A stretch of DNA of 64,000 nt from an uncultured Paracoccaceae bacterium. GTDB taxonomy: Bacteria > Pseudomonadota > Alphaproteobacteria > Rhodobacterales > Rhodobacteraceae. The stretch is from the NCBI GenBank assembly GCA_943787785.1, contig CALSNT010000005.1:1-64000 (forward strand), in the 5' to 3' direction. The notes under the pieces are model-generated. The model had not been told where the DNA came from. It saw nothing but the letters and a program-made list of their open reading frames with translations, and did not search any database. A program made the position numbers and the translations under genes. Shown in pieces: positions 18,176 to 38,477 of this stretch (its first letter is position 1; each line of letters starts with the position of its first letter).

Positions 18176-18645
18176 TAGGGCAGGGCCCACTGCCTGTGCA
18201 GTTGGCTGAGCGTCCTGACGCGACGGCGGTATGCGGCGATCGGCCCAGCCAATGCCAACCGTTCGCGCAGAATGCACATTGCGACTGGCAAGCGTCGTAG
18301 AAAACGTCGCCGTGCCGACCGAATGCCGCTACCCAGTATGACATGCGGGAAAACCCCGGTTTCCCAGAACAGCGCAAGCGTGTCCTCCAGAGGTCGGTCC
18401 AAAGCATCCGTCGCGTTCAACAACCGACGCGCCGCCGAATTGCTTACCATCTGCGCGCCAACGCTGGTTTGAACCGACTTCGGGCAAAACAGTTTCACGG
18501 CACCCTGAGAGGCAATCAGATCACCTGGCCTTTGCATTCTCTTGTCAGAAATCTGGATTACGCCAAGTGCGTCGATATGGTCTGCGGCAAGTCGTTCCGC
18601 AAAAGCAAAGCCGGGGCGGTTAATGTCCATGTAGTCCTCGATCGG
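18175..18645 (-). pseudogene. Glycosyltransferase family 25 fragment, 5' end lost to IS256
   Basis: The reverse frame from the IS boundary (18645) to the GT11 start reads PIEDYMDINRPG, then VGAQMVSNSAARRLLNATD and RPLEDTLALFW. This resembles the C-terminal half of GT25 lipopolysaccharide glycosyltransferases. The N-terminal catalytic half is missing: across the IS lies an IS3 remnant instead. The frame can open inside the IS (ATG at 18720) but would then start with IS-derived residues. The family call is moderate. Confidence 0.6.
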
Positions 18646-20030
18646 AGATATGCCCAAAAGTTGGTGACGGCCGTCATCAGGCGGCGGCTTGAAGTTGCTT
18701 GATGCCGTCTTTGAAGACAACCCCCTGAATGACCTCGGGCAGACGGTTTGGACCGGAGATCTTCCGCCACTTCTTCTTGGCTGACATCATCAACCGGAAG
18801 ACCATGGCAAGGGCGGTTTTGCGGTTTAGGCAGCCCTTGGTTTTTCTGGTGCGATTGCGGACCGTGGCGAAGACACTCTCGATCGGGTTCGTGGTCCGGA
18901 TGTGCTTCCAGTGCTCGGCCGGGTACTCGTAGAAGGCCAGGAGCTCGTCGCGGTCCTTGGCCAGCTTGCCCACGGCCTTCTCGTATTTCACCCCGTAGGT
19001 TTCGACGAAGAGATCGAAGGCGGCAGTGGCCTCCTTCTTGGTCTCGGCCATCCAGATGTCCTGCAGATCCGCCTTCGCCTTTTCGTGCAGAGATTTGGGC
19101 ATGGCGCCCAGCACGTTCGCCGTCTTGTGGACCCAACATCTCTGCTCGCGCGTGTCGGGAAAGACCTCGCGCAGCGCTGTCCAGAACCCGAGCGCGCCGT
19201 CGCCGATGGCCAGCTCGGGCGGCACCGTCAGGCCGCGTTTCTTCAGCCCCTTCAGCAGGTCGCGCCAGCTGTCGGCGTTCTCCCGGAACCCGTCCATGAT
19301 CGCCAGCACGTCCTTCTCGCCGTATTCATCGGCGCCGATAATCACCAACATACATTGACGATCGCCGTCCAGGCGCGGCGTGAAGTAGACCCCATCCGCC
19401 CAGATGTAGACGTAGCGCTTGGCCTTCAGATCGCGCTTGCGCCAGACCTCATACTCCTCCCACCAGGTCGCCTTCAGGCGGGTGATGGTTGAGGATGACA
19501 GCCCCTCGGCCTCCGGCCCCAGCAGCGCGGCCAACGCTTCGCTGAAGTCGCCTGTCGAGATACCCTTCAGATATAGCCAGGGCAGCAGCTCTGCGACCGA
19601 CTTGGCCTTGCGCAGATAGGGCGGGACCAGCGACGAGCGGAACCTGATCTTGCTGCCATCTGCATTGCTGCCGCGATCGCGGACACGCGGAACCTGAACA
19701 GGCACCGTTCCAATCCCGGTCATCATCTCTCGCTCGGGCAAGAACCCGTGGCGGACAAGTCGCTGGCGCCCTTCCTCGTCCAGAAGATGCGCATGCTCGG
19801 CGATGAACGCCGACACCTCGGCTTGTACCGCCGTGCGAAGCAGTTCCCTGGCTCCGGCCTGGATCACCTCGGTCAGCGGATCAGGCGAAAATTCCGATGG
19901 CAGTTCGAACGGGACAACGGTAGATTTGGCCATGGCGGCATATCCTTTCTCTCTGAGATCGACGGCGTCTTTCAACACCGCCATGATATGCCGCCTACTT
20001 CAGGCCATCACCAACTTTCGGGCATAACTC
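18646..20030 (-). mobile_element. IS256 family insertion sequence, copy 1
   Basis: About 1385 bases with one transposase gene. The ends are inverted repeats: left TATGCCCAAAAGTTGGTGAC, right (reverse complement) TATGCCCGAAAGTTGGTGAT. Boundaries are set by comparison with copy 2 (37095–38477). The 9-base flanks (CTCGATCGG, TCCGAGCGC) do not match, so there is no target duplication. The left neighbour is a cut GT25 gene and the right a cut IS3 gene, so one or both flanks were rearranged after insertion. Confidence 0.85.
18677..19933 (-). CDS. IS256 family transposase (copy 1)
   Basis: A 418-residue mutator-type DDE transposase. The first Asp is in YVYIWADGVYFTPRLDGD, the second in LAIGDGALGFWTALREVF, with the CWVHKTANVL helix typical of IS256 between that and the Glu region. 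The start MAKSTVVPFELPSE (19933) is shared with copy 2. The gene looks intact. Protein identity to copy 2 is high but clearly not complete (for example DVYPETREQ versus EVFPDTREQ), so the two are not a very recent duplicate pair. Confidence 0.93.
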   Translation of the reverse strand: MAKSTVVPFELPSEFSPDPLTEVIQAGARELLRTAVQAEVSAFIAEHAHLLDEEGRQRLVRHGFLPEREMMTGIGTVPVQVPRVRDRGSNADGSKIRFRSSLVPPYLRKAKSVAELLPWLYLKGISTGDFSEALAALLGPEAEGLSSSTITRLKATWWEEYEVWRKRDLKAKRYVYIWADGVYFTPRLDGDRQCMLVIIGADEYGEKDVLAIMDGFRENADSWRDLLKGLKKRGLTVPPELAIGDGALGFWTALREVFPDTREQRCWVHKTANVLGAMPKSLHEKAKADLQDIWMAETKKEATAAFDLFVETYGVKYEKAVGKLAKDRDELLAFYEYPAEHWKHIRTTNPIESVFATVRNRTRKTKGCLNRKTALAMVFRLMMSAKKKWRKISGPNRLPEVIQGVVFKDGIKQLQAAA

Positions 20031-25609: not shown

Positions 25610-26380
25610 ATTCGACCAGTTTTCAGCCTTGTTAAGATGGATCAGGGTTTCCTTTAGGCTGCTAATCTCATGGGTTCTGTTTTGCTGACATAGGCCTCAT
25701 CGGGGGTCAATATGCCGTGGGTCGAATGCGGGCGCTCCGAGTTGTAGTAGATCAGCCATTTGCCGATCCCAGTACGCATTTCTGAACCTGTCTCAAAGGC
25801 GTTCAAATAAACGCATTCATACTTCAGGGATCTCCACAGTCGCTCGATCATGCGATTGTCGCGCCAGCGCCTTGACCATCCATGCTGATTTTGATTGCAT
25901 CCGCTCAACACGTCGATCCAATCGCCACTGGTAAATTGGCTGCCCTGATCTGTGTTGAATATCTCCGGCGCGCCGTAGTTGGCCAAGCCATCTTTCAGGC
26001 CTCAACACAGAACTCCGCGTCCATACTGTTGGAAGCCGCCAGGCCAAGACCTTGCGAGCTGTGCCAATCCATGATGGCCACGAGTACAGGAAGCCACGCC
26101 GCATCGGAATATAGGTAATATCCTGCGCACCAGACTTGGTTGGGCGGTCGATCACAGATTCCTCAGCAGAGTACGGCCAGATCTTGTGCTGCGGATGCTT
26201 CTTGCTGGTGTTGGGTTCCTGATAAATCGGAACCAGACGCATAAGGCGCATCAAACGGCGGACACGATGGACGACCGCATTGATGATCATTGCGCTTCAT
26301 GTGACGGGCCATCTGTCGCGACCCGTACCACGGCGTCTCCAAGGAACTGCTTGTCGATTATCTCGGCATCGAGCGAAGAT
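25610..26380 (-). mobile_element. Degenerate IS3 family element inside the kinase gene
   Basis: Reverse-strand frames together spell an IS3 OrfB, in pieces: IDKQFLGD and PWYGSRQMARHMKRN; RRLMRLMRLVPIYQEPNTSK; DITYIPMRRGFLYS; NTDQGSQFTSGDW; RLWRSLKYECVYLNAFETGS; YYNSERPHSTHGILTP. At least two frameshifts separate them and OrfA is not seen. The exact ends and any target duplication cannot be placed. It belongs to a different IS3 branch from the remnant at 20031. Confidence 0.75.
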
Positions 26381-27097: not shown

Positions 27098-27880
27098 ATG
27101 AAAAAACCGACTTGGGTGATCGATAAGGAACGGGCGCGGCGGGCCTCGGCGGCACAGACGTTCTGGCTGTTCGGCATTCATGCGGTCGCCGATGCGCTGG
27201 CCAATCCCGCGCGCGCCAAGCTGCGGCTGGTGGTGACGCAAAACGCTCTCGACCGGTTAGGCGACGCGGTGGCGGCCAGCGGGCTGACGCCCGAAATTGC
27301 GGATCCGCGCAAGTTCCCCGCACCACTGGATCCGGGGTCAGTGCATCAGGGCGCAGCGCTCGAAGTTCGCCCGCTGGCCTGGGGCGCGGTTGCGGATCAC
27401 ATCGCCGGACCGGACGCGGGGCAGGGGCCGTTCGTGATGCTGGACCGGGTGAGTGATCCGCATAACGTGGGGGCGATCCTGCGCTCTGCCGAAGTGTTCG
27501 GTGCCCGCGCGGTCGTAGCCCCGGCGCGCCATTCGGCACCTGAAACTGGGGCGCTGGCGAAATCGGCGTCGGGCGCGTTGGAAAGGCGACCTTATTTGCG
27601 GATCGGGAATCTGAGCAACGCAATGCGCGAGGTTCAAAATGCCGGGATCACCTGCATCGGGCTCGCAGGCGAGGGCGAGGCGACGCTGGCCGAAGCGCTG
27701 GATGGGTTGGGCGGCCGGCCCGTTGCGTTGGTGCTGGGGGCCGAAGGACCGGGACTGCGCGAGAAGACTCGCGAAACCTGTGACGTGATCGCGCGAATCC
27801 CGTTTGCTTCGGATTTCGGGTCGCTGAACGTGTCAAACGCGGCGGCTGTGGCTCTGTATGAGGTGGCGCGGCGCGGGTAG
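27098..27880 (+). CDS. rlmB: 23S rRNA 2'-O-methyltransferase RlmB (SpoU family)
   Basis: A 260-residue TrmH/SpoU protein. The N-terminal substrate-binding part contains FWLFGIHAVADALANPAR. The knotted SAM-binding domain has MLDRVSDPHNVGAILRSAE, LVLGAEGPGLREKTRE and the final IPFASDFGSLNVSNAAAVAL. It would methylate G2251 (E. coli numbering) of 23S rRNA; other SpoU members have other targets, but this length and order suit RlmB. It lies beside tRNA-Tyr, in core sequence. Confidence 0.9.
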   Translation: MKKPTWVIDKERARRASAAQTFWLFGIHAVADALANPARAKLRLVVTQNALDRLGDAVAASGLTPEIADPRKFPAPLDPGSVHQGAALEVRPLAWGAVADHIAGPDAGQGPFVMLDRVSDPHNVGAILRSAEVFGARAVVAPARHSAPETGALAKSASGALERRPYLRIGNLSNAMREVQNAGITCIGLAGEGEATLAEALDGLGGRPVALVLGAEGPGLREKTRETCDVIARIPFASDFGSLNVSNAAAVALYEVARRG

Positions 27881-27921
27881 AGACCGTTTTTGGCCTGGAA
27901 CGGACATTTGACCCTTGCCCT

Positions 27922-28112
27922 CTTTGTGCACGGAATCGAGCCGAAGGCGCCTTGCACTCGCCAGCCCGTCCGGGCGGGTTGGCGACTGGTGAAGGCAGCG
28001 TAACTCTGTGAGTTGACGGGCGAACCTCACCATCAATTGGCACGAATGGCCGATGCATCACCAACCCACGGGCTGACAAGTGCAAGGCTTGTGTTGCGTG
28101 AAAACCAATGGC
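27922..28112 (+). repeat. 191-bp dispersed intergenic repeat, copy A
   Basis: This block matches 35848–36038 over 191 bases without gaps, with about 17 differences counted by eye. It contains a strong hairpin CGCCAGCCCG/CGGGTTGGCG and a second hairpin ACAAGT-gcaag-GCTTGT near the 3' end. It lies between rlmB and the YHS gene, and 218 further bases up to 28331 hold nothing recognisable except the YHS ribosome binding site. Confidence 0.85.
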
Positions 28113-28330
28113 CGCTACTGGCAAGCTTTAGCCATTGCCTGGCCACTGCTTTCAGGCACGAATTGAAACAACTCGATCCGCACAGAGGTCTTATGGCCGC
28201 TGATTCTGTCATATTTGGCCCCGGGCGCACACGGGCCATCACGGCTTCGCCAGCCCACTTTCCTGGAACCGAAACCTTACGCATGTTCTTTGCAGACTTA
28301 CCCGATGCCATTCCCAAGGAGGATCCCCCG

Positions 28331-35670: not shown

Positions 35671-35847
35671 GCTGTCCCCTTAATCTACCGCGCTGGCAAC
35701 AGTGGGGGCAGGGCGCAAGCCGAGCAAGGGTTGGACCTGTCCTGTCACGTCATGGTGACGGGACGAGAGGTCACGGTCCTTTCGCCAGGATTCTATGGAA
35801 GGAGTAGGGGGGGCTTTACGGCCCTGGGCGGACGTTCGCACAGGTTC

Positions 35848-36038
35848 CTTTGTGCACGGAATCGAGCCGAAGGCGCCGTGCACTCGCCAGCCCGTCCGGG
35901 CGGGTTGGCGACTGGTGAGGGCAGCGTAACTCTGTGAATTGACGGGCGAACCTCACGATTAAGTGGCACGAATACCCGTCTCATCACCAACCCATGGGCT
36001 GACAAGCGCAAAGCTTGTGTTGCGAGAAAACCAAAGCC
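35848..36038 (+). repeat. 191-bp dispersed intergenic repeat, copy B
   Basis: The same 191-base block as at 27922–28112, in the same orientation and without gaps. It lies between the start of the hydrolase/OsmC gene and the DUF3445 gene. The hairpin CGCCAGCCCG/CGGGTTGGCG is unchanged, and the 3' hairpin is ACAAGC-gcaaa-GCTTGT, where the changed base keeps pairing (C–G here, U·G in copy A). Confidence 0.85.
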
Positions 36039-36102
36039 CCCTCAAGGTCAAAATCGGCAATCCCGGTTTCGCTTTCACCTCGTTGCGACTAGCTTGCCGC
36101 GC

Positions 36103-36980: not shown

Positions 36981-37094
36981 ATGTTGAATCAGGAAATCTC
37001 GAAGCGACGTGATGCCGCGATCTCGAACGGGGTCGGGATGATGACGCAGATTTACGTGGACCGGGCGCTGAACTCGGAAGTCTGGGACGTGGAG
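36981..37094 (+). pseudogene. gabT: 4-aminobutyrate aminotransferase, 5' part (split by IS256)
   Basis: 38 codons from ATG 36981 (AAGGAA upstream; an ATG three bases earlier is possible): MLNQEISKRRDAAISNGVGM then MTQIYVDRALNSEVWDVE. The frame runs into the IS at the 9-bp target duplication GACGTGGAG (37086–37094). It continues in the same frame after the IS at 38478 with DVEGKRYIDFAAGIAVV, so removing the IS and one duplicate restores the gene. Confidence 0.9.
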
Positions 37095-38477
37095 AGCTAT
37101 GCCCAAAAGTTGGTGACGGCCGTCATCAGGCGGCGGTTTGAAGTTGCTTGATGCCGTCTTTGAACTCAACCCCCTGAATGATCTCGGGCAGACGGTTTGG
37201 CCCGGAGATCTTCCGCCACTTCTTCTTGGCTGACATCATCAGCCTGAAGACCATGGCGAGGGCGGTCTTGCGGTTGAGGCAGCCCTTGGTCTTCCGGGTG
37301 CGGTTCCGGACCGTGGCGAAGACGCTTTCGATCGGGTTCGTGGTCCGGATGTGTTTCCAATGCTCGGCCGGGAAGTCATAGAAGGCCAGGAGCTCATCAC
37401 GATCCTTGACCAGTTTGGCCACGGCCTTCTCGTATTTCACGCCGTAGGTGTCCACGAAGAGATCGAAGGCGGCGTTTGCCTCCTTTTTCGTCTCGGCCAT
37501 CCAGATGTCCTGCAGATCAGCCTTGGCTTTTTCGTGCAGGGATTTGGGCATCGCGCCCAACACGTTTGACGTCTTGTGAACCCAACACCGCTGCTCACGG
37601 GTCTCGGGATAGACATCTCTCAGGGCGGTCCAGAAGCCGAGTGCACCATCGCCGGTGGCCAGTTCGGGCGGAACAGTCAGTCCGCGCTTTTTCAGCCCTT
37701 TCAGCAGGTCGCGCCAGCTATCGGCGTTCTCGCGGAACCCGTCCATGATGGCGAGAACGTCCTTCTCGCCGTATTCGTCTGCACCGATAATCACCAGCAT
37801 ACATTGACGGTCGCCGCCCAACCGGGGCGTGAAGTAAACCCCATCCGCCCAGATGTAGACATAGCGCTTGCCCGTGAGGTCGCGTTTGCGCCAGGTCTCA
37901 TATTCTTCCCACCAGTTGGCCTTCAGGCGCGTGATAGTTGAGGACGACAGCCCCTCGGCATCCGGCCCCAGAAGCGCGGACAGCGCCTCGCTGAAGTCGC
38001 CGGTCGAGATGCCTTTCAGATAAAGCCAGGGCAGAAGTTCCTCCACCGACTTCGTCTTGCGCAGATACGGCGGCACCAGCGAAGAGCGGAACTTGATCTT
38101 GCTCCCATCAGCGTTGCCGCCGCGGTCTCGAACACGCGGAACCTGCACTGGTACCGTCCCGATCCCGGTCATCATTTCTCGCTCGGGCAGAAATCCGTGG
38201 CGCACCAAACGCTGGCGACCGTCCTCGTCCAGAAGATGTGCGTGTTCGGCGATAAAGGCGGAAACCTCGGCTTGAACCGCCGTGCGCAGCAACTCCTTCG
38301 CCCCGGCCTGGATCACCGCGGTCAACGGATCAGGCGAAATTTCCGATGGCAGTTCGAACGGGACAACAGTAGATTTGGCCATGGTGGCATATCCTTTCTC
38401 TTTGAGAATGACGGCGCTTCAACACCGCCATGATATGCCGCCTACTTCAGGCCATCACCAACTTTCGGGCATAACTC
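37095..38477 (-). mobile_element. IS256 family insertion sequence, copy 2
   Basis: 1383 bases, flanked by perfect 9-bp direct repeats GACGTGGAG (37086–37094 and 38478–38486). The inverted ends are TATGCCC(A/G)AAAGTTGGTGA. One transposase gene lies on the reverse strand, as in copy 1. The clean target duplication and unbroken gabT halves indicate recent insertion. Confidence 0.95.
37126..38382 (-). CDS. IS256 family transposase (copy 2)
   Basis: A 418-residue DDE transposase of the mutator type with YVYIWADGVYFTPRLGGD, LATGDGALGFWTALRDVYPE and CWVHKTSNVLGAMPKSLHEK. It is collinear with copy 1 with scattered substitutions, including LATGDG for LAIGDG next to the second catalytic Asp. No frameshift is seen, so the element may be active. 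Confidence 0.93.
   Translation of the reverse strand: MAKSTVVPFELPSEISPDPLTAVIQAGAKELLRTAVQAEVSAFIAEHAHLLDEDGRQRLVRHGFLPEREMMTGIGTVPVQVPRVRDRGGNADGSKIKFRSSLVPPYLRKTKSVEELLPWLYLKGISTGDFSEALSALLGPDAEGLSSSTITRLKANWWEEYETWRKRDLTGKRYVYIWADGVYFTPRLGGDRQCMLVIIGADEYGEKDVLAIMDGFRENADSWRDLLKGLKKRGLTVPPELATGDGALGFWTALRDVYPETREQRCWVHKTSNVLGAMPKSLHEKAKADLQDIWMAETKKEANAAFDLFVDTYGVKYEKAVAKLVKDRDELLAFYDFPAEHWKHIRTTNPIESVFATVRNRTRKTKGCLNRKTALAMVFRLMMSAKKKWRKISGPNRLPEIIQGVEFKDGIKQLQTAA

Follow-up and report, generated by a model that had tools for sequence, protein, structure and literature searches.

A probable mobile palindromic repeat of Rhodobacteraceae, similar in kind to ERIC and REPIN elements, in gaps between genes of an uncultured Paracoccaceae bacterium

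In the window, the stretch of 64,000 nucleotides from an uncultured Paracoccaceae bacterium analysed here, two similar intergenic sequences raise the question of whether they are a mobile short element, a structured RNA or DNA site, or the remains of coding sequence. Copy A (27922-28112) and copy B (35848-36038) align with 0 indels and exactly 17 differences over 191 positions, in agreement with the gap-free pair with about 17 changes described in the earlier note, and the pair is also recovered as a 195-nt repeat at 91%. Copy A matches B with E=4e-73 and further copies elsewhere in the genome with E from 1e-83 to 1e-70, a resemblance far beyond chance. According to gene names read off ORF translations, copy A lies between rlmB (27098-27880) and a gene encoding a YHS-domain protein, and copy B is flanked by two divergent genes, so that the intergenic placement claimed for both holds on this reading. 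The description as two copies 7.9 kb apart does not hold, since the same genome carries far more of them. Likewise, the ends first proposed for copy A, 27922-28112, enclose its best-conserved inner part, but the young unit is longer, at about 27891-28125: upon BLAST comparison of A and its flanks with other young copies the matches end at 27886-27923 and at 28114-28125, the longest being 27891-28125. The features of the two copies are the following.

27891-28125, plus strand: copy A, whole young unit of about 235 bp, weak outer inverted repeats and structured core (BLAST against young copies)
27891-27910, plus strand: copy A, left outer inverted repeat TGGCCTGGAACGGACATTTG
27924-28089, plus strand: copy A, structured core (covariance model, 164.8 bits)
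27926-27957, plus strand: copy A, hairpin H1, GUGCACGG..CCUUGCAC around an inner GCC-GAA-GGC, one outer pair broken
27958-27985, plus strand: copy A, local hairpin H2, a = CGCCAGCCCG, a' = CGGGUUGGCG
28056-28089, plus strand: copy A, 3' arm b5' + b3', long-range partner of the 5' arm
28108-28127, minus strand: copy A, right outer inverted repeat, degraded, reverse complement AGCTTGCCAGTAGCGGCCAT
35818-36050, plus strand: copy B, whole unit, approximate, outer edges placed by eye from the flanks
35850-36015, plus strand: copy B, structured core (covariance model, 165.3 bits)
35852-35883, plus strand: copy B, hairpin H1, intact GUGCACGG/CCGUGCAC
35884-35911, plus strand: copy B, local hairpin H2

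The unit forms an imperfect palindrome, with two additional small hairpins, H1 and H2, in its 5' arm. Its core measures about 165 bp, and young copies add weak terminal inverted repeats of about 20 bp, reaching about 235 bp in total. On the plus strand the order is an outer repeat, H1, H2, about 80 variable bases in which an ATAAA-type motif is common, a CGTY motif, and the 3' arm b5'-b3'. H1 consists of an outer stem, a conserved internal loop GGAATCAAG and a small inner hairpin, GCC-GAA-GGC or GGC-GAA-GCC, while H2 is formed by a, a loop and a'. The 3' arm is an inverted H2 with a shortened loop running into an inverted copy of the H1 3' strand, and in copy A it accordingly repeats H2 and the 3' strand of H1 in inverted, shortened form. 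Several subfamilies of the window's genome (G000) and of a congener (G001) share the terminal inverted repeats of about 20 bp (GGCCTGAAGCGG..) and an outer repeat similar to GGCCTGAAGCGGACGTTCG, whereas other genera have different flanks; across genera the core is better conserved than the ends, and with flanks so variable the mobile boundary is uncertain outside these two genomes. The flank repeat GTTTTTCAACACAATC, considered as a longer inverted repeat of the unit, belongs to a separate MITE.

Other mobile DNA is found in the same genomes. In the congener, loci L152-L231 correspond to a separate 218-bp MITE with ends GATTGTGTTGAAAAACTCC..GGAGTTTTTCAACACAATC, present in 80 copies in 1.6 Mb, 80/80 of them letter-identical and with 4-bp duplications at most listed sites; it is nearly absent from the window's genome, and unless the assembly misleads it represents a very recent burst. 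The window itself contains two related insertion-sequence regions (18645-20030 and 37094-38477; 300 nt at 92%, 60 nt identical), and judging from translations 37126-38382 looks like an IS256-type transposase and 25654-26290 holds pieces similar to an IS3-type transposase, spread across two frames.

Comparison of A with B alone gives almost no support for a structure, because H2 is invariant and the one change in H1 breaks a pair. The earlier note had reported that two hairpins are kept and that a change inside the second one preserves pairing. In fact, H2 (GCCAGCCCG-UCCGGG-CGGGUUGGC) does not differ between the two copies and holds no such change, while the single difference in H1 leaves C-U at 27931/27952 in A, a broken outer pair, against C-G in B. 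The long-range pair 27968/28069 changes from G-C to G-U between the two copies. Structural support derives only from the wider family, for which a covariance model (R1, 35 copies) was built. Covariation was assessed in 112 aligned copies for a long-range fold in which a pairs with b3' and a' with b5', and the alignment is not tilted towards these pairs because the guiding model held H1 and H2 only. In this fold 89.8% of the cells are paired and 22 of the 33 pairs are changed on both sides, such cells numbering 366, as opposed to 118 after shuffling, and the covariation score of 0.257 exceeds both the 0.073 obtained by shuffling and the slid controls, none of which is above 0.043. The discriminating column 42 forms T-A in 49, G-C in 30 and A-T in 24 copies with its long-range partner 162, whereas with the rival local partner 59 the combinations T.T (31) and G.T (18) are seen. 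The fold is under selection and is kept by compensatory change across genera, and the key pairing is the long-range one between the arms, not the two local hairpins alone. H1 and H2 covary too (the H1 inner stem pair 19-92 shows two-sided change in 30 of 106 family cells), and therefore both the local and the long-range folds seem to matter; a single strand is predicted to be capable of forming the local hairpins or, alternatively, one long hairpin. As a caution, if the two hairpins were copies that a single factor recognizes, this would by itself produce mutual complementarity without any need for the long hairpin.

A single acting strand was considered, as suggested by 73 A.C against 9 G.U in the long-range pairs; counted once per locus, wobble in these pairs (26 vs 8) favors the minus strand, but in H2 (15 G.U on the plus strand vs 1) it favors the plus strand. 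Since the H2 bias is opposite and fold energies favor different strands in different genomes, no acting strand is claimed.

The family is large. In the genome of the window, BLAST with copy A retrieves at least 15 near-complete copies (E 1e-95 to 3.5e-17) plus fragments, and eight young copies share 90-100% identity; the congener yields about a dozen matches, most at 73-79% identity, and in other genera the search reaches the first 60 bases only, although by inspection the entire architecture is kept there with different stem sequences. With the covariance model, 11 places were found in 400 kb of G000 and about 48 in 1.6 Mb of G001 (E<=1.3e-7, leaving out reverse-strand shadows of the same palindromes), a density of about 30/Mb that by extrapolation would amount to about 110-120 per genome if the copies were evenly spread. 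The family was detected in 166 of 394 Rhodobacteraceae genomes (42%), a sample with mostly one genome per genus, and the 58% without a match at the threshold used make an essential role unlikely; among 385 genomes drawn from the class, matches occurred only within Rhodobacteraceae. Its distribution within Rhodobacteraceae is thus patchy, and named carriers include Pseudoroseicyclus tamaricis, Alloyangia, Salipiger, Seohaeicola, Defluviimonas and Roseovarius, together with a few roseobacter plasmids. The closest relative of a copy lies in its own genome in 43/43 cases in G001, 10/10 in G019 and 11/19 in G000. Close direct repeats, with 2-3 elements about 170-285 bp apart, occur at L100:1327-1835, L076, L079 and L139. 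A phage origin was also considered and set aside, with 0 matches in INPHARED and IMG/VR.

Evidence of insertion comes from orthologous sites. In Alloyangia pacifica DSM 26894 and KcN7-14 an element stands exactly between two adjoining ABC-transporter genes, which look like sugar-transporter permeases, while in 30/30 other genera read the same genes abut or overlap and carry no insert; by the same measure the gap is 36-153 in other genera vs 340 and 313 in the two strains, and the covariance model finds no element in the gaps of those other genera. The insert preserves the start and the stop codon and has CAT (3 bp) or GCTCAT (6 bp) on both sides, which is the only possible target-site duplication at a filled/empty site, no clear one having been found and the flanks of G000 and G001 being too diverged. 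The two strains carry different copies in this gap, in opposite orientation: the flanks are about 92% identical, but the element is 76% identical and inverted, whereas another element, 3 kb away, is common to both strains without inversion and with much higher similarity. Between G000 and G001, over 400 kb of the former, an element is present in just one of the genomes at five orthologous gaps and in both genomes at three, and two of these three hold reversed copies (copy A and G000 C11:167394). The gap of copy A holds another, reversed subfamily in the congener, that of copy L009 a different subfamily in the same orientation, and one locus of the congener shows what appears to be a degraded remnant. 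Near rlmB, 28 other genera yielded no element, and beyond the genus the gene order after rlmB is not kept. Judged from these insertion patterns, the element inserts; the different copies at the few shared sites may stem either from renewed insertion into a favored gap or from gene conversion that replaced the earlier occupant.

As to the genes around the copies, 44 of the 48 copies in G001 overlap no called gene, and, in figures that are approximate owing to the use of our own ORF caller, convergent gaps hold 18 copies (37.5%) vs 126 of 638 gaps of at least 100 bp (20%), and divergent gaps 7 copies (15% vs 23% of gaps). Some copies lie within operons. This placement fits insertion tolerated near gene ends, where REPs have likewise been reported (PMC3733652). 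An orientation bias relative to genes was also looked for and gave no clear preference, the plus strand being sense in 16 copies and the minus strand in 7 within co-directional gaps.

We consider it probable that A and B belong to a non-coding, non-autonomous, structure-dependent mobile repeat that is specific to Rhodobacteraceae and ERIC/REPIN-like in kind. Both halves of the proposal of a mobile short element or a structured RNA/DNA site apply, with filled and empty orthologous sites on one side and compensatory change on the other, and what was found is a large family with compensatory stem changes, not two copies with random ones. We hypothesize that an enzyme acting in trans would recognize the folded strand and copy or move the unit into gaps between genes, where insertions near gene ends would be tolerated and persist; once transcribed, copies may, like ERIC, fold into a large hairpin at the 3' end of the mRNA or in an intercistronic stretch, with an effect on the mRNA that would be mild at most. 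Among ~2 Mb of G000 and G001 a search that was not exhaustive found no transposase with these ends and no autonomous partner among the copies. In a variant to which we assign a low probability, the palindromic repeat would spread without a transposase of known type, through host recombination or an unknown structure-specific enzyme, re-entering or overwriting occupied sites; either orientation would then be expected at such sites, because, owing to the two arms, the copying machinery would treat both alike.

It is unlikely that the repeat is a cis-acting RNA element of the host, with a conserved hairpin in 3'-UTRs or between cistrons that is maintained for stabilizing, processing or terminating transcripts and was multiplied secondarily, but this is an explanation that the strong fold (z=-4.5 for the minus strand of copy A) and the covariation would suit, as would the excess between convergent genes and the copies inside operons; conservation of the fold in many genera could also reflect a host function. 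Nevertheless, the genes next to the copies are unrelated, close relatives differ by gains and losses of sites, both orientations are used, even to the point that the copy at a shared site may be reversed, and no U run follows the hairpins in the copies read. It is improbable that the repeat is a DNA site for chromosome function, such as a cruciform or a nucleoid-protein site, with copies kept by ectopic gene conversion and not by transposition: the nearest relatives are usually in the same genome and different copies occupy the same site, as conversion could give, but clean new insertions exist, and the distribution described above speaks against an essential role.

A REPIN proper, with REP doublets mobilized by a RAYT transposase that has since disappeared from these genomes or diverged beyond recognition, appears quite improbable. 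REPINs are inverted hairpin units with a local or a single long fold, compensatory changes, tandem clusters and within-genome amplification (PMC3116915), and the present family resembles them in its two inverted palindromic units pairing into one long hairpin, as indicated by the long-range covariation, in its compensatory changes, tandem clusters and amplification within genomes and in its excess near gene ends. In contrast, the family is much longer and lacks the GTAG tag (GTAG/CTAC occurs anywhere in only 32 of 112 copies), and the Y1 transposase/RAYT (PF01797) is absent from six of the seven carrier genomes tested, namely G000, despite its eight young copies, G001, G002, G003, G012 and G019; it is present in carrier G016. 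ERIC, or RU-1 (127 bp), and RU-2 (168 bp; YPAL in Yersinia) are small enterobacterial non-coding intergenic imperfect palindromes with a long hairpin and MITE-like mobility (PMC2759123), and in Yersinia ERIC modulates neighboring genes via RNA hairpins (PMC2267715). The family is likewise small, non-coding, intergenic and imperfectly palindromic and folds into a long hairpin, but differs in taxon, in its longer unit, in the two extra hairpins of one arm and in its rapidly changing stems, and no sequence match to it was found in E. coli (20,395 records, 5,426 genomes; distant mode, E<=0.01). Being alike in kind to ERIC and REPINs but, by these comparisons, belonging to neither, it is therefore called a new family of a known kind.

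The CGTC-REPs occur mainly in Alphaproteobacteria, between convergent or unidirectional genes, often as inverted dimers and without a dedicated transposase, and are short, 20-40 bp, with stems of 8-9 bp beginning with two A-T pairs (PMC3733652). Placement, taxon, the CGTY motif and the lack of a known transposase are common to both, and 69 of 112 copies have a CGTY/TGTY motif (CGTC/TGTC 30, CGTT/TGTT 39) ahead of the 3' hairpin, standing a few bases off the stem and not adjoining it; in contrast to CGTC-REPs, the unit is at least 165 bp and GC-rich, the stem is mostly of G-C pairs and the motif is more often CGTT. MITEs such as Correia, which alters neighboring transcripts (PMC2649163), and NEMIS share with the family a non-coding nature, many copies and intergenic placement, and their inverted-repeat ends have a possible counterpart in the weak outer repeats of several G000/G001 subfamilies; here, neither a parent insertion sequence nor a firm target duplication was found, and the core is better conserved across genera than the ends. 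No named Rhodobacteraceae repeat of this kind was found in literature searches, and the family is apparently undescribed.

Among known Rfam RNAs there is no match to the core, only sub-threshold or chance ones; beside an element in G000, L110:459-619 (minus strand) gives a sub-threshold match to PrrB/RsmZ, at 30.1 bits against a gathering score of 44. In agreement with the earlier view that this is not leftover coding sequence, no frame is open in all copies, none is conserved, and copy length is not confined to one class modulo 3 but occurs in all three. Thus independent multi-copy small-RNA genes, or leftover coding or insertion-sequence DNA, are very improbable, for the structure and the several subfamilies would suit them but there is no conserved upstream flank that could be a promoter, no common open frame and no Rfam match to the core.

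The family adds an alphaproteobacterial case to the palindromic repeats without a known mobilizer, a question posed for the CGTC-REPs, and its structural covariation is unusually clear. The two closely related A. pacifica strains offer filled/empty and reversed sites that are testable, and, if left unrecognized, the family could mislead the annotation of genes and small RNAs, as well as assembly, in these genomes.
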